Below are positions 18,801 through 51,665 of a stretch of 64,000 bases of DNA, piece after piece. The stretch lies in the NCBI GenBank assembly GCA_902800395.1, contig CADCEC010000006.1, forward strand, positions 1 through 64,000, in the 5' to 3' direction. The DNA is from an uncultured Bacteroidota bacterium. Its GTDB lineage: Bacteria; Bacteroidota; Bacteroidia; Bacteroidales; P3. Position 1 is the stretch's first letter; each line of letters opens with the position of its first letter. A program made the position numbers and the translations under genes. The notes below the pieces were generated by a model. It worked only from the letters and a program-made list of their open reading frames with translations. It had not been told where the DNA came from and made no database searches.

Positions 18801-21800
18801 ATCAACCTGACGATGAATGCCATACAGCCCGTAATCACAGGAACGAAAACTGCCTGTGAGGGCGACAGCATCGCTATGACGGTGGAACACGCGTTAAGCT
18901 ACCTCTGGAGCACCGGTGAGGAGGACAGCAGCATCGTGGTTCCCGTGGGCGAAATGACCAATTGGAGCTGCATGGTGACCGACAGCAACGGCTGCCCCGA
19001 TACACTCTATCATAGCGCTACCGTCTACCCCGTCTACGATGTCACACAAGATACCGCCGTCTACGAAGGCGACTTCCCCTACACCTGGCACGATAGCACC
19101 TTCACCTCCGTGCCCAACGACTCGGTCGGCGGCACCTTCCTGCGCCACTACCTCTCCATCCACGGCTGCGACAGCGCAGTACACTACCAACTCTCAGCAC
19201 TGTTCGACGTGGAAGTAACGTTCGACTCTACGGTGTGCGAAAGCGCACTGCCCTTTACATGGAACGACAGTGTCTTCACCGGGGCGGGCAGCAAGCATCT
19301 GGTGCTGCCGACATGGTATGGTGGCGACAGCACCATCACCATGCGCCTCACCGTGGAGCCTACCACCTACGACACCCTCACACAGATCATCGTAGAAAAC
19401 CAGCTGCCCTACACCTTCCTTGACACATCCTTCACCTCCGTGCCCGCCGACTCGGCCGGCAGGGCTATAGCCTCCGCCACCTTCAGGCTCACCAATGCCG
19501 GCGGTTGCGACAGCATCCTCACCTTCTTCCTACAGGTTTACGAGAACGTCGGCACGATGCTCTACGACACCGTGTGTGAAACAGAACTGCCACTACTATG
19601 GAATGGGCTTATTTTCAATGAAGCAGGTACTAAATTCGACACCCTCACAGCCTCTACCGGCGCCGACAGCATCCTCACCATGGTGCTGACGGTGATACCC
19701 ACCACCTACGGCTCCCTTACACAAACCATCGTGGAGAACCAGTTGCCCTACACCTTCCTCGACACATCCTTCACCTCCGTGCCCACAGACTCGGTCGGCG
19801 GGACTGTAGCCACTGCTACCTTTAGGCTCACCAATGCCGCTGGCTGCGATAGCATCCTCTCTTACACCTTGATAGTGTATGAGAACGTAGGGGCCCTGCT
19901 TTACGACACCGTCTGCGAGAGCGAACTGCCCTACACCTGGGGCGGCCGCACCTTCAACGCTGCCGGCATCCAATTCGACACCCTGCAGACCGTCGACGGC
20001 GCCGACAGCATCTTGACAATGCAACTCACGGTAATCCCAACCACTTATGCTTCCTACACCGAAGCCATCGTCGAGAACAGCCTGCCCCACACTTTCCTCG
20101 ACACCACCTTTACCACAGTGCCCGTCGACTCGGTTGGCGGGACAGCGTCCAGCGCTTCGGCCACTGCCACCTTCAGGCTCACCAACGCCGCCGGCTGCGA
20201 CAGCATCCTCTCCTACACCCTGGTGGTCCATCTCAATGTCGACACCACCTTATATGATACCATTTGCGAACATGTGTTGCCGTATACGTGGAATGATAGC
20301 ATCTTCTCCGCTGCTGGCAGTAACGTGACCACCATCCTCAATCATTTCGGTGCCGACAGCACCATCACCATGCATCTGGCGGTAATCCCCACCACCTACG
20401 GAACCTACCACGACACCATCGTCGAGAACCAGCTGCCCTACACTTTCTACCACCGCACCTTCGCCACCGTAATCGGTGATTCTGTCGCCGACACCCTCCA
20501 TATACTCAATGCCGCCGGCTGCGACAGCATCCTCTCCTACAGTCTCTTTGTCCACCGCAACGTCGATACCACCCTCTTCGACACCGTCTGCGAGGGTGCG
20601 CTGCCCTACACCTGGAACGGCCACACCTTCACCGCTGTGCCCGGCGATTCCACCCCAGGCCTCCTCATCGCTTACGACACCCTCCTGAACCAACATGGCG
20701 CCGACAGCGTGATAATTCTTCAGCTCACAGTAATCCCCACCACCTACGGCACCTATTCGGAGAGCATCGTCGAAAACAGCCTGCCCCACACCTTCCTCGA
20801 CACCACCTTTACAGACTCAGTTATCAATTTTCAATTCTCAATTCTCAATTCGAAAGGCTGCGACAGCATTCTCTCCTACACTTTGGTGGTCCACCGCAAT
20901 GTCGACACTACCTTATATGATACCGTCTGCGAGAGCACGATTCCCTATACTTGGAATGGTCATACCTTCGCCATTGCGGTCGACACTTCGACCGTCGACA
21001 CCTTCACCGACCGCTTCGGAGCCGACAGCACGGTGACGATGCACCTGACGGTAATTCCCACCACCTACGGCACCTACCGCGACACCATCGTCGAGAACCA
21101 GTTGCCCTACACCTTCTACCACCGCACCTTCGCCGCTATAATTGGCGATTCGGTCACCGACACCCTCCATATCCTCAACGTCGCCGGCTGCGACAGCATC
21201 CTCTCCTACAGTCTCTTCGTCCACCGCAACGTCTTCGTCACCCTATACGATACCGTTTGCGACAACCAGCTGCCCCTCCAGTGGAACCATGGCACCTTCG
21301 CCACTGTGCCCGCCGACTTCGTCGGCGGGGTCTTCACGCAGTTCGACACCCTACCGGCCCATACCGGCGCCGACAGCATTTTGACGATGGTTCTTACGGT
21401 ACACCCCACCTATCTGGTCACCGACACCGTCGGCCGATGCCAGCAGGACTTCCCCTACACCTGGCGCGACACCACCTTCACCACCGCACCTACCGGCTCG
21501 GCCAGCGGGCTCTTCCAGCGCCACCACCTCTCCATCCACGGCTGCGACAGCACCCATAGACTGCTGCTCACCGTCTACTATGCCGCTGCCACCATCGACA
21601 CCGTGATAGCCTGCGAACCCTACCTCTGGATTGACGGCATCGTCCATCAGCACCACGACTCCGCCACCTTCCTGCTGCACACCGTCCACGGCTGTGACAG
21701 CCTCGTCACCCTCGACCTGCAGATGCGCAGCCCCACAGAGACCTTCCTGGTGGACACCTTCTGTCTGGGCTCCACCTACCTCTTCGGCTCCTATGAACTC

Positions 21801-38310: not shown

Positions 38311-40119
38311 TCACTGTATGAGCAGTTTTTTGGTGGTGGGGCCGGCGGGGGTGAAGATGCGGAGGAGGTAGGTGCCGCGGGGCCAGGTGCTGATGTCGAG
38401 GTCGGCCTTGAGGCCCGAGGCGGGGAGGGTCTGGACGAGGCGGCCCTTGGCGTCATAGGTCTCAATGCGGGTGAGTCCGAAGCTGGAGGTCACCCTGACC
38501 TTGTTCGTCGCCGGATTGGGCATCACAGCGGTCTCTTCATCGGCCACCCCGTCAATGCCGTCACAATCTTCTTCGATTTGTATATTGGTCAGTCCCGGCT
38601 GGGCCTGATAGGCAGCACTGCATCCACAGGGTACATACACCAGAGAAGCATGCCAGAAAGCCTCTTCGAATATCACGGGGGGCTGCTCGCCGCGGAAGCG
38701 CACCTCACTCATGTTGTATGCCGACTTCCCGATGGTGTCGGGGGAACCGAGAAACTCTACATAATCAGCGCCATTTACTCCGTCGAATGCCTGTGTTCCA
38801 ACTGTCTTGAGCGATGCCGGCATCGGTGGTAAGGTGTCCAGGGAGGTAATACGAAAGGCTTTGGGGTGTATCTCCTCCAGCATGGAACCCCACTGCAAGT
38901 CGGTGAGCGACTGGCACGCATAGAAGGCTTCCTTCCCAATAATCTTCAGTGAATCGGGGAGGACGATGGAGGTGATGCTGCTTTCGGCGAAAGCCTGCCA
39001 GGAAATTTCACGCACACCTGCAGGAACGACCACCTCGCTAATGCCTGTATTACGCATAAAGGCCTGCAGGCCAATGACCCGCAGAGTGGAAGGGAGGTTG
39101 ACATTGCAACGGGTGCCAAAGAATGCCCCCTCGCCGATGTCGGTGAGCCCTTCGGGCAGGGTGACCGAGATAAGGTCCGTGTTGCCGGAGAAAAGTTCGT
39201 TGGACAATACTTTGACACCTTCGGGGACGCTGTAGTTACCACTGGCATTGGTGACTAAAAGCAGGGTGTCGCCGTCGACACTCGTCAGGCGACCGTCGGC
39301 AAAGGTGTAGTGGCTGTTGGCCGAATCGACAACCACCGAGAGCCATTCAGGAGGATACTCCCCCACGGGGTTGCCCTCGATGCGACAGACCGATGCCGGA
39401 AGATACAGGGTGCTGATGGAGGTGGGAATGGCACCCTCGCCAATCTCCTTGAGGTTCGGGGGCATGATGACGGCGATGGGGGTTCTTCTTCCGATGGACC
39501 ATGACTCGAGGCGCTGCAGGGTTGCGGGCAGAAACACCGTGTCAACCCTCTTTCCGGGAGGTGTGGATATGAGGACTGTAGTGTCTGCATTGCAGAGGAA
39601 CCCGTCAACAACACGGTAGTGGCTGTTGGCGCTGTCGACCGTGAAGGATGTGATGCCTGAAGAATGAAAGGCACAGGATCCGATGTGACTGACAGAAGCC
39701 GGCAGATGTATGGTATTCAGACGGCTGCAAAAGGCAAAGGCCCCGATGCCAATGGACTGCAGGGACGAGGGGAGCGCTATGCTCTGGAGTCGGGTTGATG
39801 AGAAGGCATCACGTCCTATTTCTTCGATGGTGGAGGGCAACGACACTCTCGTGACGGCACAGCCGTCAAAGGCTTTTTCACCAATGCGGGTTACCGTGTA
39901 GGTCGTCCCATTGCATTCCACTGTTGAGGGAACGACCACCGCACCAGAATACCAGGAACAAGTGGCCAGTTCTTGAAGCGATATTACCTCGACAGTGTTC
40001 GGCCCTGTGATGCTGTAGGCCACATTCCCCGACACGAAGCCTATCACTCCGAAGTTTTGTTGCGCGGAGACCGTCAGCACGACCATCGCACAGAAAAATA
40101 TGGATAATACTTTTTTCAT
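38311..40119 (-). CDS. BspA-like leucine-rich-repeat surface protein, T9SS type A tail
   Basis: The 602-residue protein has a signal peptide (to about residue 19, ending VSAQ), a short N-terminal domain ending YTVTRIGEKAFDGC, and then at least a dozen LRR_5/TpLRR-type repeats of about 23 residues with the pattern LPSSLQSIGIGAFAFCS. A linker (IEEDCDGIDGVAD) leads to a C-terminal type A sorting domain (AVMPNPATNKVRVTSS, IETYDAKGRLVQTLP, GTYLLRIFTPAGPTTKKLLIQ). It is therefore expected to cross the outer membrane by T9SS and be held at the surface; BspA relatives bind host proteins or other bacteria. Unlike the 48420 gene, it lacks the TGTCARATTT-N14-GTATTA module upstream. Confidence 0.92.
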   Translation of the reverse strand: MKKVLSIFFCAMVVLTVSAQQNFGVIGFVSGNVAYSITGPNTVEVISLQELATCSWYSGAVVVPSTVECNGTTYTVTRIGEKAFDGCAVTRVSLPSTIEEIGRDAFSSTRLQSIALPSSLQSIGIGAFAFCSRLNTIHLPASVSHIGSCAFHSSGITSFTVDSANSHYRVVDGFLCNADTTVLISTPPGKRVDTVFLPATLQRLESWSIGRRTPIAVIMPPNLKEIGEGAIPTSISTLYLPASVCRIEGNPVGEYPPEWLSVVVDSANSHYTFADGRLTSVDGDTLLLVTNASGNYSVPEGVKVLSNELFSGNTDLISVTLPEGLTDIGEGAFFGTRCNVNLPSTLRVIGLQAFMRNTGISEVVVPAGVREISWQAFAESSITSIVLPDSLKIIGKEAFYACQSLTDLQWGSMLEEIHPKAFRITSLDTLPPMPASLKTVGTQAFDGVNGADYVEFLGSPDTIGKSAYNMSEVRFRGEQPPVIFEEAFWHASLVYVPCGCSAAYQAQPGLTNIQIEEDCDGIDGVADEETAVMPNPATNKVRVTSSFGLTRIETYDAKGRLVQTLPASGLKADLDISTWPRGTYLLRIFTPAGPTTKKLLIQ

Positions 40120-41323: not shown

Positions 41324-41619
41324 TGGCGATGGAGGAGGTTGAAGGTGTCGTTGAAAGCCTGCTCGCGAGAGGCATAGCGCTCAAGGCGCATGGCGGTGTT
41401 GTCGGCCGCCGGAGAGCAGGAATAGGTGACCAGGACGACGAAGGCCGCCAGACAGGAGAGGCGGAAGGCAAAACCGTGCCGTTCGCGCCGCATCAGAGGG
41501 CCGACGGGCTCGTCGGTGAGCGTTGTCGCAAGACGCAGCTGTCCTTGTCGCAGCTCTTTGGCCAAAGAATGCTGGCACCGCAGCGTCGTCAATAGCGTTT
41601 CTTTGTCGTTATTTTTCAT
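41320..41619 (-). CDS. Small single-pass membrane protein, candidate anti-sigma factor
   Basis: The start at 41619 overlaps the sigma-factor stop (ATGA), giving 99 residues. A cytoplasmic N-terminal part of about 50 residues (MKNNDKETLLTTLRCQHSLA...) precedes one membrane helix (about 52-70, FRLSCLAAFVVLVTYSC) and a short outside tail. Position directly after an ECF sigma gene, size and topology all fit a minimal anti-sigma factor, but the sequence shows no ZAS zinc-binding motif, so this is an inference from context. The other three sigma factors in the island have a helix fused to the sigma protein itself, so this pair might be the split equivalent. Confidence 0.65.
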   Translation of the reverse strand: MKNNDKETLLTTLRCQHSLAKELRQGQLRLATTLTDEPVGPLMRRERHGFAFRLSCLAAFVVLVTYSCSPAADNTAMRLERYASREQAFNDTFNLLHRQ

Positions 41620-42143
41620 CGTTTGTTCAGTTTTTCGTTTATAATGCGGGCTTTTGTCATGACTCGGCGAAGCCTCTTGTATACGGCATTGGTGGAACAT
41701 TGGAGTTTTGCAGCCATCTCGTCGACATCCATCTCCTCGAGTTGCATCTCCATTAGGCGCCGCTCGTTGGGGGTGAGACGAACCATAATCTCCTCCAGCT
41801 GCTCGCGTCCCTCGTAGGTCTCCTCGACCAAAGTGTCGACTATCTCGCTGCTTAGCCGCTCGGGTGACGGAATCCGCTGGTGGAAGAAGTCGTTGATGAC
41901 CTTCCGTGCCCGCCAGTAGACCCATGTACCCTCCAGCCTGCCGGGACGGTAGCTGTCAAGATGTAGCCACAACCCTATGGAGACTTCCTGTATCAGTTCT
42001 TTGCAGAGCTCCTCGTCGCCTCCCGACCGACCCGCACACACATAGCGTATCAGCTTGGCGTGACGGCGCACCACAGCCTCATAGAGATGCTGCATCTGCA
42101 ACAACTCCTCACGAGAGAGTTTCCTGATGTCCTCGTTCTTCAT
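41616..42143 (-). CDS. ECF-type RNA polymerase sigma factor
   Basis: The 175-residue protein contains a sigma region 2 (YEAVVRRHAKLIRYVCAG to IQEVSIGLWLHLDSYRPGRLEGTWVYWRARKVIND) and a region 4 helix-turn-helix (LTPNERRLMEMQLEEMDVDEMAAKLQCSTNAVYKRLRRVMTKAR). The order and size are those of extracytoplasmic-function sigma factors. It resembles the sigma parts of the 43864, 44930 and 50340 genes (shared QEVSI.LWLH.D.. in region 2). The start at 42143 is the first ATG; the in-frame codon further upstream is TTG inside the promoter. It heads a four-gene operon. Confidence 0.9.
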   Translation of the reverse strand: MKNEDIRKLSREELLQMQHLYEAVVRRHAKLIRYVCAGRSGGDEELCKELIQEVSIGLWLHLDSYRPGRLEGTWVYWRARKVINDFFHQRIPSPERLSSEIVDTLVEETYEGREQLEEIMVRLTPNERRLMEMQLEEMDVDEMAAKLQCSTNAVYKRLRRVMTKARIINEKLNKR

Positions 42144-42173: not shown

Positions 42174-42318
42174 AATATTCTATATATAAATACCCCCTTT
42201 TTTGGCAAAAATTGGCCATAGGGGTGAAAATTTTTTTACACATTTTCTTAAACCGTTGATAACAAACACTCTGTTTTTAGCATACAATAAAAAAAATTTT
42301 TCGTCGTTATGAGAAATT

Positions 42319-43169: not shown

Positions 43170-43853
43170 TTAATTATTGTCCTCTTGAGACCGCTCTTCA
43201 TTATTATCTTCAGATTTCTCAGATTCTTTTTGGGCGACGGGCACGGGGTTCCAGGGTTCGTTGAATAATATCCATATCGGTGGAGTGCGGAGCATGGTAC
43301 GACGATATGGGTTTCTTCCTGTCGGTGTAGGCCACGAAAGGTCAACGTTGGCAGGACCAATGTCAATGAGTTCTTCTCGTCTGCTGAAGTTCCACAACCG
43401 CGGGTCGTTGGGGCTGGTGATGAGGAGGCCCATCTTGTAGAGCATGTTCCGCTTTGCATAGACGCTTACGGTGTTCAGCCACACCATGTCGGGATGCTCG
43501 GCAAGCATGGGGACGCGGGCGGCGGCGCCCGTAGGCGGAGCAACGATGCTGCGAAGCCAGCTGTCGCGTGTCAGACGTAGGTTCTTGTAGCACATCATGG
43601 TGTCACCGAACTGAGTGACCAGCAGGGTGTAGCTGCCCGCCGGCAGGGGCGGCAGTTCGAAGTATCCATCGTAGTCGGTGAGGGCGATACCCATGCTGCG
43701 CCCACCCTGCAGCAGTTGCACATGGCACATGGGAAGCACCCGGCCGTCGACGGTGTTGACGACAACACCCTCCACCGTCAGGCTGTCGGCCTGCGAACGG
43801 GCAGCGACCGCAACCGTCAGCGCTATCAAGGCTATAAGAAAACGTGACTTCAT
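43170..43853 (-). CDS. Exported protein with carboxypeptidase-regulatory-like domain
   Basis: The 227-residue protein has a signal peptide (about 1-20, ending AARSQ) and residues 22-105 form a CarboxypepD_reg-like beta sandwich: LTVEGVVVNTVDGRVLPMC, GIALTDYDGYFELPPLPAGSYTLLVTQFGD. The C-terminal half has PNDPRLWNFSRREELIDIGPANVDLSWPTP and is unassigned. Such domains plug or decorate outer-membrane receptors in Bacteroidota. It starts 10 bases after the stop of a sigma-TM-tail gene and is almost certainly cotranscribed with it, so it is a candidate partner or sensor component of that sigma factor. Confidence 0.8.
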   Translation of the reverse strand: MKSRFLIALIALTVAVAARSQADSLTVEGVVVNTVDGRVLPMCHVQLLQGGRSMGIALTDYDGYFELPPLPAGSYTLLVTQFGDTMMCYKNLRLTRDSWLRSIVAPPTGAAARVPMLAEHPDMVWLNTVSVYAKRNMLYKMGLLITSPNDPRLWNFSRREELIDIGPANVDLSWPTPTGRNPYRRTMLRTPPIWILFNEPWNPVPVAQKESEKSEDNNEERSQEDNN

Positions 43854-43863
43854 AATGGTATTT

Positions 43864-44853
43864 CTATATTCTCATCTTTATCCACAGGGTGTCGCCCACC
43901 GCGAGGTTGTATTGGTAGACGCCGTAGAAGCGGCCTAATTTGGAGGGGATTTCGAAGGTACACATCCCGCGGCAACACTTCGAAGAGACCACGCGGCCGT
44001 ACTTGTCGTAGAAGACCACCCATTCGCCATCCAGGCCGCTGACGGTGAGGATGGTGCCCGTGATGGCGATTGTCGCTGGACGCAGCTGCCTGTCGGAGGG
44101 CAGGATAGGGGCCTCGTCGAAGCTGACCAGTGGTTCTGTCGAGAAGTGGATATGCTCGACGGGGGGCTGCACCTCCCTTGCCTCGGGCGCAGCGACTACC
44201 TCCAAAGACGGCACACTGTCCACATCCTCTTTCACCACGGCGGAGACCGGCGCGGAGACACTGACAGGGACTGTATCCTCCGCCGCCGGCTCGCCGCCAT
44301 TGAAGACCCGATGGCGCCACTGCGGCACCACGGCGACGGCGACAGTGCTGGCCACAAGCAACAAAAGCGTCAGCAACATCGCCTTGCGAGCCTTCCCCAC
44401 CACACGATGCATGCGCTGGTAGACGGTGTCGTGGCTGAGATTCATCAGGTCGGCAATCTCCCTGGTTTTATAGCCATCGAGGTAAAGGCCCACCAGGCGT
44501 TGCTCCTCGGGGCTGAGTGCGGCCATCAGATGCTCTATCTCCTCCTGCCTATGCCTAGTGTCCTCGTCGGCCACAGTCTCCTCCAACAGGGTGGTCAGCG
44601 GCTGCATGGAAGGCTTCTGGAGACGGCGCTGGAGGTCGAGGGTGGAGCGGCACTGCCAGTAGATCCATGCGCGTTTCTCGGCGGGAGTGGCGTCGGGCCG
44701 CAGAGCGTCGAAATGGAGCCACAGGGCGATGGAGACCTCCTGCACCAGGTCGTTGCAGCGGTCCCAGTTGCCTCTGGCCCTGAACCAGCACATGCGCCAC
44801 ACCAACGGGCGGTAGCGCTCCAGCAGCTCGGTATATGCACTCTGTCTGTCCAT
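43864..44853 (-). CDS. ECF-type sigma factor fused to membrane helix and sorting-domain-like tail
   Basis: This 329-residue protein combines a sigma region 2 (YTELLERYRPLVWRMCW to LVQEVSIALWLHFD), a region 4 helix-turn-helix (LSPEEQRLVGLYLDGYKTREIADLMNLSHDTVYQRMHR), one membrane helix right after it (about 158-178, AMLLTLLLLVASTVAVAVVP), an acidic and Pro/Val-rich linker, and a small C-terminal beta domain (ITGTILTVSGLDGEWVVFYDKYGRVVSS...GVYQYNLAVGDTLWIKMRI) that resembles a T9SS type A sorting domain. Predicted topology: sigma part in the cytoplasm, tail in the periplasm. The start at 44853 aligns with the other fusions. The upstream module is at 44861-44894. I infer that release from the membrane is needed for activity. 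Confidence 0.87.
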   Translation of the reverse strand: MDRQSAYTELLERYRPLVWRMCWFRARGNWDRCNDLVQEVSIALWLHFDALRPDATPAEKRAWIYWQCRSTLDLQRRLQKPSMQPLTTLLEETVADEDTRHRQEEIEHLMAALSPEEQRLVGLYLDGYKTREIADLMNLSHDTVYQRMHRVVGKARKAMLLTLLLLVASTVAVAVVPQWRHRVFNGGEPAAEDTVPVSVSAPVSAVVKEDVDSVPSLEVVAAPEAREVQPPVEHIHFSTEPLVSFDEAPILPSDRQLRPATIAITGTILTVSGLDGEWVVFYDKYGRVVSSKCCRGMCTFEIPSKLGRFYGVYQYNLAVGDTLWIKMRI

Positions 44854-44860
44854 CTCTATA

Positions 44861-44911
44861 AATATAATACACATCCAACGCCGAAAATCTGACATTGGAT
44901 GTGCAAAAATA
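44861..44911 (-). promoter_or_regulatory. Shared sigma-regulon module A plus inverted repeat and -7 box
   Basis: On the - strand TGTCAGATTT (44885-44894), 14 bases, then GTATTATATT (44861-44870), ending 7 bases before the sigma ATG. The 9-bp arms CACATCCAA (44870-44878) and TTGGATGTG (44895-44903) flank the first box with a 16-base spacer. Further upstream, TATTTTTG (44904-44911) fits a housekeeping -7 box. Confidence 0.75.
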
Positions 44912-44929
44912 CGAAAAAAATCTTTTTCT

Positions 44930-46432
44930 CTACCTTATCACTATCACTTTCTGCAGCGGGCGGGTGTCGACTTTGACCAGGTAGACACCCGGGGCGGGAA
45001 CCCTCAGGTTGCAGCGACCACGGCCTATTTCCTCAACCACCTGGCGGCCCTCCTGGTCAAAGACCGTCACCGCCTCGCCGAAGACACCTTCGACAACGAT
45101 GCACCTATACCCTGTACTGATGGACACCGCAGGCTGCTCCACCTCGGGCACCGCATCGCAGTCGTCTTGGATATTCGCAAAATAGTTCCAGTAAGGGGCG
45201 TTGCGGTAAGCCGCGACGCTGCCACAGGGGACAATGAGGACAAGGTTGCGGTTCATCTGCTTAAAGGTGTTGGCGAAAGCCACGGGTGGCTCTGGGGCAA
45301 GGGAGACAAGGGTGTCTATGTTGCGGCACTGGAAGAAGGCGGCCTCGCCAATATGAGTGAGACCTGCAGGCAGCGTGAGTTTCGTCAACTCCCAACACTC
45401 GTGGAACGCCGCTGTGTCGATATATACCACCGAAGAGGGGATATTCACCTCCTCCAAGCCTGTGCAGCCGAAGAAGGTTTGGAAACGAATAGTGTCAAGT
45501 CCTTCGGGAAGCCTTATCTTCTTGATGCTTCCAGAATAGTTGTAGCAGAAAGCCATACGTCCGATATACTGCACCGAGTTGGGTACAATTATTGAGTCAA
45601 GATGAGTGCATGAATTGAAAGCCCCATTGTCAATGAATGTCACGCGGCTGCCGAGTTCAATCTTCTTCATGTTGCTATAGTAGAAAGCACCATTGCCGAT
45701 AGACAACTCGGCATCGTCGATGGTTACAGTGGCACTTGGCAAAAAGGCCGAATAGAACGCCGACTTGCCTATATGTTTTACCGTCGAAGGAATGGTAATT
45801 CCCTCCAACCCGTCGCATACTCCGAAAGCCTGATTTCCAATGGTGTCGAGCCCTTCGGGGAGCGTGACGGAGGTCAACGATGATTTGTAGTAGAAGGCTC
45901 GTGTCCCGATAACACGAACAGTTGCAGGCACCACCGCCGAGGTGATGTGACGGCTGGCAGTGAGGCGGGTCTTGCTGTTGTCGGAATAGAAAAGGCTGTC
46001 CTCCTCGTAGCCGTTCACCGTGTTGGCGCCCCAAGGGCTACCGGTGGCGGAGCCGTGATAGATAACATTGGGGACCAGCGAGAAAGCCTTGTCGCCAATG
46101 ACAGTAACCCCGTCGGGGACGGTTACCGTCTCAATCTCCAGATGGCTTTGAAAGGCTTCCTCGGCCACTTCCGTGACAGCGTATCTCACGCCCTCATGTT
46201 CCACGCTGTCGGGCAGCACAAGGTCGGCGTTGTAATGGATATAGTGCGTGTTGTATGACCAAGCGTCGCCACGCACGCTGACGTGGTGCTGCGCCGAGTC
46301 GACGATGGTGCAGAGGAGCGTGTCGCCCTGCGGGGTGACGCTTTGGAAATCGTAGGCCACCTGTGCCTGTGTGGCGGTGACCAAGGCCAACAATGCCGCT
46401 GTCGTAGCGGTCCGTTTCAATGAAATATTCAT
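44930..46432 (-). other. Probable internal translation unit: secreted BspA protein
   Basis: An ATG at 46432, in the frame of the sigma fusion, begins MNISLKRTATTAALLALV and would encode a 500-residue secreted LRR protein with an AQ cleavage site and a type A sorting tail. The sequence just before it (CTAAAAATCGACAGT) is AT-rich as at other starts here. I see no separate promoter, so it may depend on the sigma mRNA. Confidence 0.55.
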
Positions 46433-47269
46433 ACTGTCGATTTTTAGGGTGTCGTTCTCCACGAAGGCCTGCGGGAAGTGTCCCGTGGCCGTGACGGCGT
46501 AGTTGCCGGAGTTGCGGGTGTAGGTGATGGAGCTGTCGTTGCGGCACCAGGTGACGGACCAGCCCTCCATCCCCACGCCCACATACTCCCAGTTCACCAC
46601 CACGTCGGGATCCTGCTTTTCCTCGCTGACGCTGTCGGTCGCCGAGGGGAGGGCTGGGGAGACCGGCGCGGGGACACTGACAGGGACCGTGTCCTCCGCT
46701 GCCGAAAACCCGCTGCCGAAAACCCGCTGGCGCCACTGCGGCACCACGGCGATGGCGACAGTGCTGGCCACAAGCAACAGAAACAACGCCAGCAATGCCT
46801 TGCGAGCCTTCCCCAGGGCACGGTGCAGGCGCTGGTAGACAACCTCGCGGCTAAGGCCCATAATCGAGGCTATCTCCTTGGGGCGATAGCCCTCGATGTG
46901 AAGGCGCACCAACTCCTGTTCCGCGGGGCTGAGGGCGGCCATCAGGTGCTCCATCTCCTCTTTCTGCGCCAGCAGGTCGTCGGCAGCCACCGTGTCGGCC
47001 ACCATGGCCGTCAGCGGCAGCAGCGACGGGCGCTCCTTGCGCCGCTGCAGGTCGAGCACCGAGCGTGTCCACCAGCGGACCCAGGCCTTCTCCTCCTGGA
47101 GCACCGCGTCGGGCCGCAACTCGTCGAAGTGAATCCACAGCGTGATGGAGACCTCCTGCAGCAGGTCCTTGCAGCGGCTCCTGTTGCCGCGGGCGGACTT
47201 CCAGCACAAGGCCCACACCATCCTCCGGTGGCGCTCCAGCAGTTCGGTATATGCACTATGACGGCTCAT
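44930..47269 (-). CDS. Sigma factor-TM protein fused in frame to a BspA-like surface protein
   Basis: The 779-residue open frame has two parts. Residues 1-279: sigma region 2 (about 8-78), region 4 (about 113-152, LSPAEQELVRLHIEGYRPKEI), a membrane helix (about 158-177, ALLALFLLLVASTVAIAVVP) and a periplasmic linker with VVVNWEYVGVGMEGWSV. Residues 280-779 look like a complete BspA-like protein: its own Met and signal peptide (TTAALLALVTATQAQ), LRR_5 repeats (ALPNSVQYIGRMAF-type) and a T9SS type A tail (EAVTVFDQEGRQVV, GVYLVKVDTRPLQKVIVIR). A signal peptide in the middle of a protein is hard to reconcile with one chain: its orientation would be reversed after the first helix. Internal initiation at 46432 or a recent loss of a stop codon is more likely. 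The module upstream is at 47274-47307. Confidence 0.85.
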   Translation of the reverse strand: MSRHSAYTELLERHRRMVWALCWKSARGNRSRCKDLLQEVSITLWIHFDELRPDAVLQEEKAWVRWWTRSVLDLQRRKERPSLLPLTAMVADTVAADDLLAQKEEMEHLMAALSPAEQELVRLHIEGYRPKEIASIMGLSREVVYQRLHRALGKARKALLALFLLLVASTVAIAVVPQWRQRVFGSGFSAAEDTVPVSVPAPVSPALPSATDSVSEEKQDPDVVVNWEYVGVGMEGWSVTWCRNDSSITYTRNSGNYAVTATGHFPQAFVENDTLKIDSMNISLKRTATTAALLALVTATQAQVAYDFQSVTPQGDTLLCTIVDSAQHHVSVRGDAWSYNTHYIHYNADLVLPDSVEHEGVRYAVTEVAEEAFQSHLEIETVTVPDGVTVIGDKAFSLVPNVIYHGSATGSPWGANTVNGYEEDSLFYSDNSKTRLTASRHITSAVVPATVRVIGTRAFYYKSSLTSVTLPEGLDTIGNQAFGVCDGLEGITIPSTVKHIGKSAFYSAFLPSATVTIDDAELSIGNGAFYYSNMKKIELGSRVTFIDNGAFNSCTHLDSIIVPNSVQYIGRMAFCYNYSGSIKKIRLPEGLDTIRFQTFFGCTGLEEVNIPSSVVYIDTAAFHECWELTKLTLPAGLTHIGEAAFFQCRNIDTLVSLAPEPPVAFANTFKQMNRNLVLIVPCGSVAAYRNAPYWNYFANIQDDCDAVPEVEQPAVSISTGYRCIVVEGVFGEAVTVFDQEGRQVVEEIGRGRCNLRVPAPGVYLVKVDTRPLQKVIVIR

Positions 47270-47273
47270 ACAC

Positions 47274-47324
47274 TAACTAATACACCTCCGACACCCTAAA
47301 TCTGACATCGGAGGTGCAAAAATA
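47274..47324 (-). promoter_or_regulatory. Shared sigma-regulon module B plus inverted repeat and -7 box
   Basis: On the - strand TGTCAGATTT (47298-47307), 14 bases, then GTATTAGTTA (47274-47283), 4 bases before the sigma ATG. The arms CACCTCCGA (47283-47291) and TCGGAGGTG (47308-47316), spacer 16, are the counterpart of module A with two compensated base changes. TATTTTTG (47317-47324) lies upstream. Confidence 0.75.
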
Positions 47325-47336
47325 TGAAAAAAATTT

Positions 47337-48248
47337 CTATTTGTCCTGCACCAGGCGCAGCGAGAAGGCGTTGCTGCGGCCCTCGCCGTCGCTGGGATAA
47401 AGCATGTTGTCGTTGAAGAGGAGGCCAAGGGCACAATCGGGATATTCGGCACCGTATGGTGACACTGACCAATAGACCCCGTACTGGTTCTCATAGTTGA
47501 AGAAGGTGTACTGCCGGTATCCCGCCGCAGGCAGGAAGATGGCTCCGGCAGCCTCCAGGCGTTCCCACTGCTCCATGGTGTATACGTTGGAGTTGAAGCC
47601 ACTATGGGCAGGAGTGAAGCTGATGCCGTCGGGAGCCGTCCACTCGTCGGGCAGGAGGATGAGACCCTTGTAGCGGTCATCGATGGTGGCACGGCCCCAT
47701 TTGCTGGGGCGATTGCCGCCACCGAAGAGATAGGCCCACTCCACATTGGTAAGCGTACGCCACATGCCCGTCTGGTTGCCGCCATTCGCGATGGAGTTGT
47801 ACACGCCCCAGTCGGCATTGGCGTAATCGCCCGTAAGGCTGTTCTGCCAGCTGCCGCCGGGCTGGTAGTCGGCATCGTCGATACTGACAGACCACGGCTG
47901 GTAGGCGTTGGCACCGCTCTCCCATCCGCTGGTACCCCAGCCGAAACAGTCAATCCAGCCTTCGTTGCTTGGAGAGATTTGGGTGTTGGCCGCACCCATC
48001 ACCTCATACTGCTTCGCGGCGAAACGCCAGGTGTCGGTCGAGGCCTGATACTGCAGGTTGCCCCGCGAGATGCGCACCTGCCTGTTCGCCGCCACCGAGA
48101 AGAGCGCCTTGCTGGCACCGTTGGCATCGAAGGGGTCTGTCGTCTCTGTCTGGGTCGGCTCATCGATGTTTTTGTCTTTCTCGCAGCCCGTCAGCAGCAT
48201 TGCGCCCAGGGCGAGGACGGCGAGGGATTTGATGATGTTGTGTGTCAT
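47337..48248 (-). CDS. Lipoprotein of a Bacteroidales paralogous family
   Basis: The 303-residue protein carries a lipoprotein signal (LAVLALGAMLLTGC, cysteine at 22). The mature part has the pattern RQVRISRGNLQYQASTDTWRFA, YEVMGAANTQISPSNEGWIDCFGWGTSG, ADWGVYNSIANGGNQTGMWRTLTNVEWAYLF and a C-terminal YWSVSPYG...AFSLRLVQ. I recognise this as a common but unnamed cell-surface family in Bacteroidales, similar in layout to Fibrobacter major paralogous domains. Its function is unknown; it is likely surface-exposed. The upstream region contains the 24-bp hairpin array at 48288-48398 rather than a visible housekeeping promoter. Confidence 0.8.
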   Translation of the reverse strand: MTHNIIKSLAVLALGAMLLTGCEKDKNIDEPTQTETTDPFDANGASKALFSVAANRQVRISRGNLQYQASTDTWRFAAKQYEVMGAANTQISPSNEGWIDCFGWGTSGWESGANAYQPWSVSIDDADYQPGGSWQNSLTGDYANADWGVYNSIANGGNQTGMWRTLTNVEWAYLFGGGNRPSKWGRATIDDRYKGLILLPDEWTAPDGISFTPAHSGFNSNVYTMEQWERLEAAGAIFLPAAGYRQYTFFNYENQYGVYWSVSPYGAEYPDCALGLLFNDNMLYPSDGEGRSNAFSLRLVQDK

Positions 48249-48287
48249 ATTGAATCTGTTTTAAAGAGTGTGTTTTCAATCTTAAAA

Positions 48288-48398
48288 CGATACCTCGTAT
48301 CGTATGCCAATCGATACCTCGTATCGTATGGTAATCATTACCTCGTATCGTATGGGTATCGATACCTCGTATCGTATGGTGGTCGATACCTCGTATCG
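48288..48398. repeat. Array of five 24-bp hairpin repeats
   Basis: The unit CGATACCTCGTATCGTATG plus 5 variable bases recurs at 48288, 48312, 48336, 48360 and 48384 with an exact 24-base period. The core CGATAC-CTC-GTATCG is self-complementary; copy 3 starts CATTAC. The array lies in the 171-base gap between the 48420 gene and the start of the lipoprotein gene. Confidence 0.92.
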
Positions 48399-48419
48399 TT
48401 TCACATGCCCTTCTAATGC

Positions 48420-50231
48420 TTACTTCATTACTACGATTTTCCGCGCCGGGCGGTCGCCGACCTTCACTATATAGACCCCCGAGGGGATTGCCTGATTGCT
48501 TGATTGCTTGAATGTCTGAATGAGGCGGCCGGTGATGTCATAGATGCGGACGGTCTCGCCATCGGCTCCCTCGACGATGATGCGGTCACCGAGGGTATAG
48601 ATGTTGATGCTCTCCACGTCGGGGTCGCCGATGCCCACGCTGCAGTCCTCGACATAGCGGTCGGCAAATTCTTGCCAGTAGCTGTCGGACAGCCAGGCAT
48701 CGAGGTTGCCACAAATGGCGATGGTATCTATCCGGCCTATCATGTAGAGGGGCCCTTCGCCCTTGATGGCAGGGGGCAAACCGCCGGTGAAGCGTATCTT
48801 TTGGATGTTGGCGCTCTCGAAAACAGCGGTGCCCAGGGTGTCCACCTGTCCGTGGAAGGTCACCGAGCGCAGATTGTTGGTGCACGCACCGAAAGCACAA
48901 TCGCCAACCTTCCTCAGCGATGCCGGGAGGTCAAGATTGGTAACATGCGATTGACTCATTTGCGACAATGCCCAGAAAGCATAGTCGCCAATCTCCTCAA
49001 CGTCGTTGTTCCAGGTGACGGAGCTGAGTTTTATGCATGAGTTGAAGGCCTCTTTGGGGATGATGCGCAGCGAGTCGGGGATGACGATGGAGGTCAGCGC
49101 ATAGCAGTGCTCGAACGCACCCTGTCCCATCGAGAGCAGCGTCTGCGGCATGGTGACGCTGGCCAGCCGGTCGTTCTCCGAGAAAGCTTTCCGGCCTATC
49201 GACTTCATGTGCGTCGGCAGTGTGATGCTAGTAATCTTGCAGCCGTTGAAGCAGTTTTCGGTGATGTCGGTCACACTCTCGGGGATGGTGATATTCCGCA
49301 CCCAAGTGTTGTTCTCGAAGCCGCCCAAGACCTTCAGGTTGGGATTGAGAGTCACCGTGGCGCCCGACTTGTGGCACGAGACCAGCGTGTCGTAGTCGCT
49401 GCTGTATACCATCAGGCCGTCCATCACATAATGTGTGTTGCCGCTGGCGATGGAGAGGTTGCTCATCTGCGGACAGTAGGAGAAGGGGTTGACGCCGATA
49501 TGTGTCACCGTAGAGGGGACGACAATACCGTCGACCGTCGAGCAGCAGTTGAATGCGAAGTCGCCGATGGAAACCAATCCTTCGGGCAGTGTGACCGAGG
49601 TGATGTGGCTGCAAAAGCCGAAAGCCATCTTGCCAAGATGCTGCACGAATTGTGGCACCGCGACGGCTCCCGTCTCACCACTGGGCACGATGCAGAGCGT
49701 CAGGCTGTCCTTGCTGTAGAGCCAGCCGTCGATGGAACGGTAGCGGGGATTGCCCTCGTCCACCGTGATGCTGGTCAGGTTCCGTGCCCAGAAAGAGCAC
49801 TCGTCATACTCTTCAAAACAGGCAGGCAGGTGCAACGACGAGATGCTGGAGTAGAGGAAGGCGTGGTCGTCGATGCGGCGCAACGAGTCGGGCAGCTGCA
49901 GCGTCGTGAATGTGCAGTTGTAGAAACAATGCGACCCGATGCTACGAATGGTTGGCGGAAGCGTGAGGCTGGTCATGGTGGTGCAACTCTCGAAAGCAGT
50001 TTCAGCCAGTGCCGTCACTGTGTAGGTGTTGCCGTCATATTCCACCGTCTGTGGAATGACAATGGAGCCGCTGTAGGGGGTGTTGTGCAGATAATAGTTC
50101 GACAACACTTCGACGGTCTGCCCGGATGTGATGCCGTAGACGATACCGTCCGATTCGAAATACTGCGCCTTTGCCATTGCAGGCAACAGAAGGGCGGTGA
50201 AAGCGATGAATTTAATGATACGATGTTTCAT
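48420..50231 (-). CDS. BspA-like leucine-rich-repeat surface protein in the sigma regulon
   Basis: I start the gene at 50231 (MKHRIIKFIAFTALLLPAM, cleavage near AKAQ), giving 603 residues; an upstream in-frame ATG at 50258 is possible. After a short N-terminal domain with YTVTALAETAFESC come a dozen or more LRR_5 repeats (LPPTIRSIGSHCFYNC-like), then a type A sorting tail (INIYTLGDRIIVEGADGETVRIYDITGRLI, GVYIVKVGDRPARKIVV). It should be secreted by T9SS and surface-attached. The tail contains a CAAGCAAT-family insert (48487-48518). The module TGTCAAATTT-N14-GTATTATATT, shared with the three sigma fusions, lies 43-76 bases upstream, which makes this gene the best candidate target of those sigma factors. 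Confidence 0.9.
   Translation of the reverse strand: MKHRIIKFIAFTALLLPAMAKAQYFESDGIVYGITSGQTVEVLSNYYLHNTPYSGSIVIPQTVEYDGNTYTVTALAETAFESCTTMTSLTLPPTIRSIGSHCFYNCTFTTLQLPDSLRRIDDHAFLYSSISSLHLPACFEEYDECSFWARNLTSITVDEGNPRYRSIDGWLYSKDSLTLCIVPSGETGAVAVPQFVQHLGKMAFGFCSHITSVTLPEGLVSIGDFAFNCCSTVDGIVVPSTVTHIGVNPFSYCPQMSNLSIASGNTHYVMDGLMVYSSDYDTLVSCHKSGATVTLNPNLKVLGGFENNTWVRNITIPESVTDITENCFNGCKITSITLPTHMKSIGRKAFSENDRLASVTMPQTLLSMGQGAFEHCYALTSIVIPDSLRIIPKEAFNSCIKLSSVTWNNDVEEIGDYAFWALSQMSQSHVTNLDLPASLRKVGDCAFGACTNNLRSVTFHGQVDTLGTAVFESANIQKIRFTGGLPPAIKGEGPLYMIGRIDTIAICGNLDAWLSDSYWQEFADRYVEDCSVGIGDPDVESINIYTLGDRIIVEGADGETVRIYDITGRLIQTFKQSSNQAIPSGVYIVKVGDRPARKIVVMK
48487..48518 (-). repeat. In-frame CAAGCAAT-family repeat in BspA sorting domain
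   Basis: Four octamers (on the coding strand CAGACATT, CAAGCAAT twice, CAGGCAAT) encode KQSSNQAI-like residues in the turn before GVYIVKVGD of the sorting domain. It is the same unit as in metG and the U32 gene. Confidence 0.88.
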
Positions 50232-50273
50232 GATTTGTATGATTTTGTTGTTAATCATTTCAGCTCTTCTACA

Positions 50274-50307
50274 AATATAATACACCCCTAACACCCAAAA
50301 TTTGACA
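50274..50307 (-). promoter_or_regulatory. Shared sigma-regulon module C (before BspA gene)
   Basis: On the - strand TGTCAAATTT (50298-50307), 14 bases, then GTATTATATT (50274-50283) continuing TG, which makes TATATTTG. The BspA start is about 42 bases downstream, a normal promoter-to-start distance. The flanking inverted repeat of modules A and B is not preserved here. Confidence 0.75.
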
Positions 50308-50339
50308 TCGGATGAGAAAAAAGATTTAGATGATATCGT

Positions 50340-51482
50340 TTAGAACATGCGTATCCGCTGGGTCGAAGCAGGGATAGGATGTGTCGGATTCCCTCGGGGG
50401 AGTTGCTTGATGAAGACCTGCTGCCGCGGGCGGTCTCCCACTTGTACCCAGAAGGCGTTGGTTCCTGAAGTAGTGGTTGGGGAATAGGAATGGTCCTGCA
50501 TCCCTATGGTGAGCATGCAATGGTCGTTGCACCGCGCTGTGGCCACCAGGCGCCCTCGAGAATCGAAGACATCGACACGTTCGTCCCTAACGCCTTCCAC
50601 CACGATGTTGTTCCCCACCACCCGGATGGTCACATCGGCTTCCTCTTCCTGCAGCTCCTCGTCGGTGTCGTCGAAGGGAACGCAGTCGGCACGCTGCCCG
50701 CCACCGCGAGCGCTGTCGGGGCACCCGCAAGGTCCAGTAATGCCCGGCACAGGGATAGGCAACACCGTGTCGGCAACAGGGACGAGATGGGAAAGGGGCT
50801 CCGGCGGGATCCATGTGCGGCGTGTAACGACGGTGTCCCCTATGCTGTCGCCGACAACAGAAGGGGCAGGGGAGAGGGCGGCGGGGACACTGACAGGGAG
50901 CGTATCCTCCACCGCCGGCTCGCCGCCGCCGAAGACCCGCTGGCGCCACTGTGGCACCACAGCGATGGCGACAGTGCTGGCCACAAGCAACAAAAACAAC
51001 ACCAGCAACGCTTTGCGGGCCTTCCCCAAGGCGCGGTGCATGCGCTGATAGACAGTGTCGCGCCGGAGACCCAAGGTTTCCGCTATCTCGTCGGCACGGT
51101 AGCCCTCGATATGCAGCCGCATCAGCTGCTGCTCCTCGGGGCTGAGGGCCGCCATCAGTTCTTCAATATCCTCCTCCACAGCGCTATTGTCGGCATCGGG
51201 GATGGTCTCGGCCATCACCTCCGTCAAAGCCACCATCGGCGGCCGCTGGCTGCGGTGCAGGTGGTCGAGGGTGGTGCGTGTCATCCACCACACCCAGGCC
51301 TTCTCCTCTTTGGGGGAGACGTCCGTGCGCAGCTGGTCGAGATGCAGCCAGAGGGCGATGGAGACCTCCTGCACCAGGTCGCGGCAGCGCTCGTAGTTGC
51401 CCCGCGCCCGTACCCAGCACCCACGCCACACCATCGGGAGGTGACGCTTCAACAATTCGGTGTATCTACTTTGTCGGTCCAT
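50340..51482 (-). CDS. ECF-type sigma factor fused to membrane helix and sorting-domain-like tail
   Basis: The 380-residue protein has region 2 (YTELLKRHLPMVWRGCW to LVQEVSIALWLHLDQL), region 4 (LSPEEQQLMRLHIEGYRADEIAETLGLRRDTVYQRMHR), a membrane helix (about 158-178, LLVLFLLLVASTVAIAVVP), a Pro-rich linker with a conserved VPQWRQRVFGGGEPA start, and a C-terminal beta domain (IRVVGNNIVVEGVRDERVDVFDSRGRLVAT, FWVQVGDRPRQQVFIK) very like the sorting tails of the neighbouring BspA proteins (compare GVYIVKVGDRPARKIVV). Without a signal peptide it should stay in the inner membrane with the tail outside. It lies directly upstream of the BspA gene that shares its promoter module. Confidence 0.88.
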   Translation of the reverse strand: MDRQSRYTELLKRHLPMVWRGCWVRARGNYERCRDLVQEVSIALWLHLDQLRTDVSPKEEKAWVWWMTRTTLDHLHRSQRPPMVALTEVMAETIPDADNSAVEEDIEELMAALSPEEQQLMRLHIEGYRADEIAETLGLRRDTVYQRMHRALGKARKALLVLFLLLVASTVAIAVVPQWRQRVFGGGEPAVEDTLPVSVPAALSPAPSVVGDSIGDTVVTRRTWIPPEPLSHLVPVADTVLPIPVPGITGPCGCPDSARGGGQRADCVPFDDTDEELQEEEADVTIRVVGNNIVVEGVRDERVDVFDSRGRLVATARCNDHCMLTIGMQDHSYSPTTTSGTNAFWVQVGDRPRQQVFIKQLPRGNPTHPIPASTQRIRMF

Positions 51483-51487
51483 CTACC

Positions 51488-51521
51488 AATATAATACCCA
51501 CATTTTAGTCGAAATCTGACA
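51488..51521 (-). promoter_or_regulatory. Shared sigma-regulon module D
   Basis: On the - strand TGTCAGATTT (51512-51521), 14 bases, then GTATTATATT (51488-51497), 5 bases before the sigma ATG. The 14-base spacer bears no resemblance to those of A-C, yet both boxes and the distance are kept. Confidence 0.75.
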
Positions 51522-51606: not shown

Positions 51607-51665
51607 GTTCCACGATAAAATATCGTAATACAATCGTGGAACAATCGTAGAACAATCGTGGAACA
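51607..51665. repeat. 11-bp tandem repeat and inverted repeat
   Basis: Three 11-bp units CAATCGTGGAA / CAATCGTAGAA follow one another from 51631. GTTCCACGAT (51607-51616) is the perfect reverse complement of ATCGTGGAAC (51633-51642). The 244-base gap 51522-51765 otherwise holds no gene. Confidence 0.8.

Follow-up and report, generated by a model that had tools for sequence, protein, structure and literature searches.

A putative ECF-type promoter shared by three membrane-fused sigma factor genes and a BspA gene of an uncultured Bacteroidales bacterium

The sigma factor cluster and its two-box sites

The stretch analysed here, referred to as the window, comprises 64,000 nucleotides (nt) of contig CADCEC010000006.1 of an uncultured Bacteroidota bacterium (assembly GCA_902800395.1; order Bacteroidales). 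Its minus strand carries three genes (sig1, sig2, and sig3) for sigma factors of the extracytoplasmic function (ECF) type, each with a predicted membrane segment in the same polypeptide, and bspA, encoding a BspA-type leucine-rich repeat (LRR) protein with a sorting tail of the type IX secretion system (T9SS). Each of the four genes is preceded by the boxes TGTCARATTT and GTATTA, which are assigned below to the -35 and -10 elements of a promoter. Genes and sites of the cluster are:

51492..51521, minus strand: putative sig3 ECF promoter; -35 box 51512-51521, -10 box 51492-51497; exact match
50340..51482, minus strand: sig3 (P0004), 380 residues; ECF sigma domain, membrane helix, and tail; assigned by Pfam
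50278..50307, minus strand: putative bspA ECF promoter; -35 box 50298-50307, -10 box 50278-50283; exact match
48420..50258 (likely start 50231), minus strand: bspA; LRR_5 protein with a T9SS type A sorting tail
47278..47307, minus strand: putative sig2 ECF promoter; -35 box 47298-47307, -10 box 47278-47283; exact match
44930..47269, minus strand: sig2 (P0002), 779 residues; sigma-membrane module continuous with a BspA LRR protein; assigned by Pfam
44865..44894, minus strand: putative sig1 ECF promoter; -35 box 44885-44894, -10 box 44865-44870; exact match
43864..44853, minus strand: sig1 (P0001), 329 residues; ECF sigma domain, membrane helix, and tail; Pfam r2 and r4_2 above cut-off

As described in the initial annotation, all four copies of TGTCARATTT-N14-GTATTA in the window are exact, are located on the minus strand, and have a gap of 14 bases; in 100 dinucleotide shuffles of the window no exact copy was obtained. 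The -35 starts given there are retained, while the -10 hexamers are displaced by four bases relative to the earlier values. The spacers of sig1, sig2, and bspA resemble each other and that of sig3 is unrelated in sequence, in agreement with the earlier description. A genome-wide count of the motif had been set beforehand as a test. In the own genome (2,405,839 bases on 21 contigs), a search allowing gaps of 10-20 bases returned the same four exact sites and nothing else (reversed control, 0); the exact motif is thus found at these genes only and not at random positions. With up to three mismatches, 39 sites were detected versus 27 in the reversed control, and due to this small difference the looser matches are mostly noise. 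Six sites have two mismatches. One of them (C3:158748) is located upstream of no convincing gene, and the other five are variants of two other box types, two situated before other ECF genes, two before secreted proteins, and one near a contig end without a called open reading frame (ORF). In view of these counts, a wider regulon in the own genome was rejected.

The box in related genomes and in the sigma tree

For a broader view, 59 genomes of the genus, the own genome included, were taken from a larger group. With at most one mismatch, 78 sites were found in 31 of these genomes, compared to 5 for the reversed pattern. Of 76 distinct sites, 34 precede ECF sigma genes and 17 precede BspA-type LRR genes. 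A further 15 are located before other ORFs, by eye mostly encoding secreted proteins, lipoproteins, and CarboxypepD-like proteins with some doubtful cases (L078, L115), and 10 are without an ORF by the calling rule. All four sites occur in RUG12171, in the same order as in the window. Sites of the sig1 type are also present in G002, those of the sig2 type in G009 and G036, and sites before sig3 relatives in L007, L008, L122, and L208. The bspA boxes are kept in five genomes, nearly identical throughout in three and with different flanks in two; counterparts of this promoter occur in four relatives, among them G071, whose bspA site has TGTAAG as the -35 sequence.

A matrix derived from 116 ECF upstream regions reads TGT(C/A)AGATTT - 14 - GTATTATA. 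At least 14 bits are reached in 78 of the 116 regions versus 5 shuffled and 2 reversed ones, a set that is partly motif-selected and on which the matrix itself was trained. For 40 ECF genes picked by protein matches alone, 34, 29, 25, and 21 reach 8, 10, 12, and 14 bits, respectively; the shuffled/reversed counts over all 116 genes at these levels are about 30/27, 18/16, 9/8, and 5/2. The spacer has a length of 14 in 67 of the 104 regions used. The 14-base spacing, previously considered invariant, hence applies to the four window sites, but in the relatives it is preferred rather than absolute, as illustrated by the sig2 ortholog of G036 with 13 bases.

Among loci fetched by protein similarity, a box of the class TGTCA(A/G)AT was observed for 14 out of 17 membrane-fused ECFs versus 2 out of 74 non-fused ones (Fisher P 7e-12, kinship ignored); a few loci of the own genome entered this set for both selection reasons. 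In the sigma tree (FastTree with midpoint rooting, printed without support values) the box types fall in groups, and the box follows the sigma clade. TGTAAG combined with a -10 box CGTATTA or CGTCTT belongs to a group of short sigma factors of 166-167 residues and its neighbours, and other variants occur elsewhere. L102, a membrane fusion inside the TGTAAG clade and outside the main fused group, has TGTAAG as its box. Since the box types group on the tree and L102 agrees with its clade in this respect, the box is associated with the sigma domain and not with the protein architecture, as judged from sequence comparison.

Two other ECFs of the own genome have their own box variants, both before themselves and before secreted proteins. 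In G000, another ECF-like site, TGTCACATTTTGCC...GTACTATTA, is present in four near-identical copies at C4:35229, C10:155815, C15:4184, and C17:35790, one of them with TTTCAC. The C15 copy precedes its ECF gene, the C4 and C17 copies precede secreted proteins, and the C10 copy is without a called ORF; those on C10 and C17 are close to contig ends. In case of the C3 ECF, a BspA gene is situated nearby, but its box is not repeated in the 4 kb read.

The initial annotation had left the choice between an ECF-type promoter and a shared operator. The exclusivity of the exact sites, their placement in the genus before ECF genes and before BspA-type and other ORFs, and the co-segregation of box and sigma factor speak for the promoter; the co-segregation also speaks against the operator. 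A pair of boxes with a preferred gap ahead of the sigma gene concerned, the usual mark of an ECF-type promoter, is present. With high confidence we therefore propose that TGTCARATTT and GTATTA represent the -35 and -10 boxes of an ECF promoter read by sig1-3 in a self-activating loop. Since the box type follows the sigma tree and most of the fused ECFs carry the box, sig1-3 probably activate themselves, each other, and bspA.

Start codon distances, hairpins, and rival explanations

The distance from the end of the -10 box to the ATG amounts to 11 nt for sig1, 8 nt for sig2, and 9 nt for sig3, somewhat longer than the 4-7 bases assumed earlier. For bspA it is 19 nt to the first ATG or 46 nt to the second in-frame ATG, the latter giving the better signal peptide by eye. 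In the genus, GTATTA ends 5-11 nt before the start codon in 27 out of 34 sigma sites versus 19-118 nt in 17 out of 17 LRR sites (P 1.5e-6 in a one-sided rank test; start codons refined by rule). A short leader as a trait of sigma genes only was dropped as a candidate, since 5 out of 7 targets classified by eye as CarboxypepD-like are at 7-10 nt, the others at 26 and 31 nt. ECF transcription usually starts a few bases past the -10 box, and for this reason the sigma mRNAs would start at or just before the AUG. The earlier expectation of leaderless transcripts can thus be retained in a softened form for the sigma genes and not for bspA: the mRNAs of sig1-3 are likely nearly leaderless, and that of bspA would carry a leader of roughly 15-45 nt. 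Leaders shorter than 10 nt make up about 3.7% in Bacteroides thetaiotaomicron according to PMC7366714, and PMC9723704 gives 5.5% leaderless mRNAs for Flavobacterium psychrophilum.

At sig1 and sig2 the -35 box is enclosed by a hairpin, into which a sequence match to the Bacteroidetes housekeeping -7 box TAnnTTTG runs:

44904..44911, minus strand: housekeeping -7 box match TATTTTTG at sig1
44868..44905, minus strand: 15-bp hairpin enclosing the sig1 -35 box; free energy (dG) -22.6, z -5.05; stem with TGTC, loop with the remainder of the box
47317..47324, minus strand: housekeeping -7 box match TATTTTTG at sig2
47281..47318, minus strand: 15-bp hairpin enclosing the sig2 -35 box; dG -23.7, z -4.47; TGTC in the stem

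These hairpins could indicate an RNA element that controls termination or translation in housekeeping or read-through transcripts, with the boxes as its conserved loop. In the pairing test, based on eight sequences (seven distinct) of sig1, sig2, and one G071 sigma gene, 99% of the pair cells are paired versus 25-49% in slid controls, two pairs are changed on both sides, and the double-change cells as well as the covariation score exceed those of all 500 shuffles (0/500). On the other hand, the number of doubly changed pairs is within the range of the shuffles (141/500) and reflects mainly one divergence, that of sig1 from sig2. Among 82 non-redundant promoters, stems scoring at least 20 occur at 4 versus 0.22 with permuted arms (0/2000 permutations; P 0.016 for the mean stem score); two of these four belong to the sig1 and sig2 types. 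Most of the 82 promoters are, however, devoid of a stable hairpin, as are bspA and sig3 (z 0.25 and 0.87), and the hairpin as a general promoter feature was rejected due to the small number of strong stems. A terminator scan flagged the sig1 hairpin as terminator-like and left that of sig2 unflagged, so that a terminator role at sig2 is unsupported; the hits total 5 versus 6.3 in shuffles, and no Rfam match was obtained up to E 1. An RNA element as the main function of the sites therefore appears improbable to us. The hairpin may instead constitute a second layer, conceivably as an insulator, as a terminator of the upstream gene, or through an effect on the leader. An element acting at another level, as suggested in the initial annotation, is in line with the overlap of hairpin and site at sig1 and sig2 and at odds with bspA and sig3.

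Promoter and operator are inseparable by sequence alone, and the inverted repeat that holds the sig1 and sig2 sites would suit an operator of a separate DNA-binding regulator controlling the sigma genes and bspA. Such an operator of an unrelated regulator is nevertheless disfavoured, because the box variants track the phylogeny of the adjacent sigma factor, L102 included; furthermore, spacing and start distance suit a promoter, and bspA and sig3 have neither a stable hairpin nor a long inverted repeat. We rate it as quite improbable. Even less credit is given to the idea that the four sites are passive relics, left when a sigma gene was duplicated in tandem along with its upstream DNA. The sigma genes are indeed paralogous and the spacers of sig1, sig2, and bspA similar, but the sig3 spacer is unrelated, both boxes are kept in relatives despite differing spacers and flanks, and in these relatives the boxes also precede other genes, by eye for lipoproteins and CarboxypepD-like proteins. 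Hardly any weight remains for a reading of the sites as housekeeping promoters whose TAnnTTTG -7 element would be TATATTTG, which directly follows the -10 box. The bspA sequence GTATTATATTTG would agree with this assumption, but TAnnTTTG lies over the -10 region in only 6 out of 66 ORF sites (1/34 sigma, 4/17 LRR, 1/15 other), and TGTCARATTT would be left unexplained.

Sigma proteins, proposed circuit, and known systems

Sig1-3 contain sigma regions 2 and 4 only, with PF04542 and PF08281 above cut-off as expected for ECF sigma factors, and TIGR02937 scores 71.1, 68.4, and 71.5 bits, respectively, at a cut-off of 42.9. By hydropathy, a hydrophobic stretch directly after region 4 is present in 32 out of 118 sigma genes; among 24 aligned fused proteins, A-x-A-x-V-P-x-W-R marks the end of this stretch in all or nearly all rows. 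The structural model of sig1 (mean predicted local distance difference test score, pLDDT, 72.9; predicted template modelling score, pTM, 0.33) predicts one helix at 141-175 running from region 4 through the membrane segment, after which come a linker of low confidence (190-256) and a small beta domain. In the 198 genomes of the order (own included), all matches listed outside the genus end by position 172 of 328, corresponding to the sigma part. In the genomes sampled and among the matches listed, the fused clade, as recognized by sequence, is seen in one Bacteroidales genus only.

Neither Pfam nor NCBIfam gave a match up to E 1 for the sig1 and sig3 tails. In particular, TIGR04183/Por_Secre_tail is absent from the sig1 and sig3 tails, and the far C-terminus of sig2 remains below the cut-offs (17.0 vs 23 and 14.0 vs 27). 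In a profile comparison the sigma tails match the tails of BspA cargo (hhalign probability 97.4-97.9%, E 1.3e-11 to 5.1e-13 over 55 columns; a single pair of alignments, both small and of low diversity, without an unrelated control), pointing to a resemblance between the sigma tails and the BspA tails used for T9SS sorting. PDB matches of the tail profile (designed propellers, WD40 repeats) were read as artefacts. The bspA product has the features of a T9SS cargo, namely LRR_5 and a TIGR04183 sorting domain (30.1 bits at a cut-off of 23) in a genome with a T9SS, as judged by SprA_N (E 3.2e-160); 47 out of 51 sorting-domain matches in the genome are above cut-off. Peptidase_M50, the site-2-protease family, is represented by one gene. 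No anti-sigma family was recognized among the six neighbouring proteins scanned.

The sig2 frame (44930-47269) contains an internal signal-peptide-like stretch from an ATG near 46433. Its layout with the BspA part is repeated in L046, L097, and L131, and a frame of similar length occurs in L035; due to this recurrence, a continuity caused by an assembly slip is unlikely. Further features downstream of sig1 are:

43170..43853, minus strand: CarboxypepD_reg protein gene directly behind sig1; 10 bases from the sig1 stop to its ATG
42187..42218, minus strand: candidate promoter of a non-fused ECF gene; boxes TGGCCAATTT-N15-GTATTTA; 11.3 bits, a level that shuffles sometimes reach

The CarboxypepD_reg gene is probably co-transcribed with sig1. 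The weaker candidate promoter belongs to the non-fused ECF gene at 41616-42143 and differs in its boxes from TGTCARATTT/GTATTA; a second copy was not found in the window with up to three mismatches. Another BspA protein (38311-40119) has a T9SS sorting tail and no upstream copy of the TGTCARATTT/GTATTA site. A 24-bp tandem repeat with 4.7 copies of CGATACCTCGTATCGTATGGTAAT (48288-48399) is located just upstream of the gene at 47337-48248, and 11/22-bp repeats of the ATCGTAGAACA type (51622-51665) are situated upstream of sig3. An ORF of 5258 codons (6882-22658) comprises fibronectin type III and CUB domains in its first 2499 residues.

In the proposed circuit, the three sigma factors with their one common box would act on their own genes, each other, bspA, and the co-transcribed genes, forming a small positive-feedback regulon which, by exact sites, is confined to the cluster. 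Transcription of the sigma genes would start at the ATG or no more than a few bases from it, and the auto-induced mRNA would be leaderless or nearly so. The sigma factor would be inactive as long as it is held by the membrane helix that continues straight from region 4, and proteolysis could release it, as with IutY of Pseudomonas putida, with an envelope signal entering via the tail. A basal transcript that starts the loop is probably supplied by the TAnnTTTG housekeeping box upstream of sig1 and sig2. In 10 out of 34 sigma sites such a box begins 16-17 nt ahead of the -35 box, with an eleventh at 32 nt (shuffled mean 0.61); the corresponding counts are 0 out of 17 for LRR sites and 1 out of 15 for other sites.

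It is tempting, albeit rather speculative, to extend this picture to one-protein envelope sensors, in which an ECF sigma factor is tethered to a periplasmic relative of T9SS sorting tails. The tail could report cargo traffic or backlog, the freed sigma factor could raise its own level, via a nearly leaderless mRNA, together with that of the cargo, and the hairpin over the -35 box could block upstream or basal transcripts at two genes. We consider this complete scenario doubtful.

Several observations weigh against the self-activating ECF promoter and the circuit built on it. The association of the box with the fused proteins is partly a matter of shared ancestry. Three of the 17 fused ECFs are exceptions (L018 with TGTAAG, L012 with AGTCAG, and L015 with no such box), and L124, a fused ECF from the motif-selected part, is without the box as well. 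Of 14 ECF loci in the own genome, only 10, 7, 5, and 4 reach 8, 10, 12, and 14 bits, respectively, and among about 13 LRR_5 frames above cut-off in this genome only two (sig2 and bspA) have an exact site. In 7 out of 34 sigma sites the distance to the ATG is 21-144 nt. AAC at -35, an early hallmark of ECF promoters, is missing from TGTCARATTT, although according to PMC8103513 it is no longer a defining ECF feature; CGT at -10 occurs in some sites only. The membrane helix is deduced from hydropathy and from a model whose overall confidence is modest (pTM 0.33), and release of the sigma factor from the membrane is argued solely by analogy with IutY.

The sites resemble the autoregulated ECF promoters described in PMC8103513 and the SM6 motif of F. 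psychrophilum (PMC9723704) in their two boxes, the preferred spacing, and the position before the sigma gene and its targets. Both sources are in line with the present case, in that positive autoregulation is described as common among ECF sigma factors and -10 boxes with GTA or CGT are reported (PMC8103513, PMC9723704); the flavobacterial SM6 has T9SS-related targets (PMC9723704), and bspA would be such a target here. In contrast to the usual autoregulated ECFs as portrayed there, the -35 box TGTCARATTT lacks AAC, the sigma genes are situated almost on the start point, exact sites occur in the cluster only, and the membrane anchor is part of the sigma protein.

An open-access literature search yielded IutY as the sole comparable design and nothing on the fused clade described here. 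Due to the fact that C-terminal extensions occur in many ECF groups (PMC8103513), sigma-membrane fusions may have been noticed before. According to PMC5411451 and PMC9249621, IutY unites sigma and anti-sigma factor in one protein and is processed by Prc and RseP; a cytoplasmic N-terminal ECF domain, one membrane helix, and a periplasmic part in one polypeptide are likewise predicted here, the membrane side being deduced. The periplasmic domain of IutY is FecR-like and serves a siderophore response (PMC5411451, PMC9249621), whereas the tails of sig1-3 are similar to T9SS sorting tails, and a FecR-like domain was not found in the sig1 or sig3 tail by Pfam or NCBIfam up to E 1. Unlike IutY, the fused sigma factors comprise many paralogs in one genus, and in some of these the chain extends into a BspA LRR protein. 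Another Bacteroidales ECF sigma factor connected with the T9SS is SigP of Porphyromonas gingivalis, as characterized in PMC4800418. This 193-residue protein comprises regions 2 and 4 and is dependent on PorX/PorY; the motif suggested for it differs from the present one, and it serves the machinery of the T9SS (PMC4800418) and not, as would be the case here, its cargo.

Compared with these systems, the promoter adds a new member to the ECF kind and is ordinary in its type. The novelty lies in the arrangement of membrane-fused sigma factors, cargo-like tails, and a private, partly near-leaderless feedback regulon. Each ECF clade in the genus appears to have its own promoter box, and that of the fused clade precedes surface proteins with tails similar to that of the sigma factor. 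A promoter code thereby becomes readable for Bacteroidales ECFs, a group with few known motifs; for those of B. thetaiotaomicron none was known as of 2020 according to PMC7366714. The cluster moreover provides testable cases both for cargo-type tails as sensors and for near-leaderless auto-induced mRNAs in a phylum in which leaders below 10 nt are rare.

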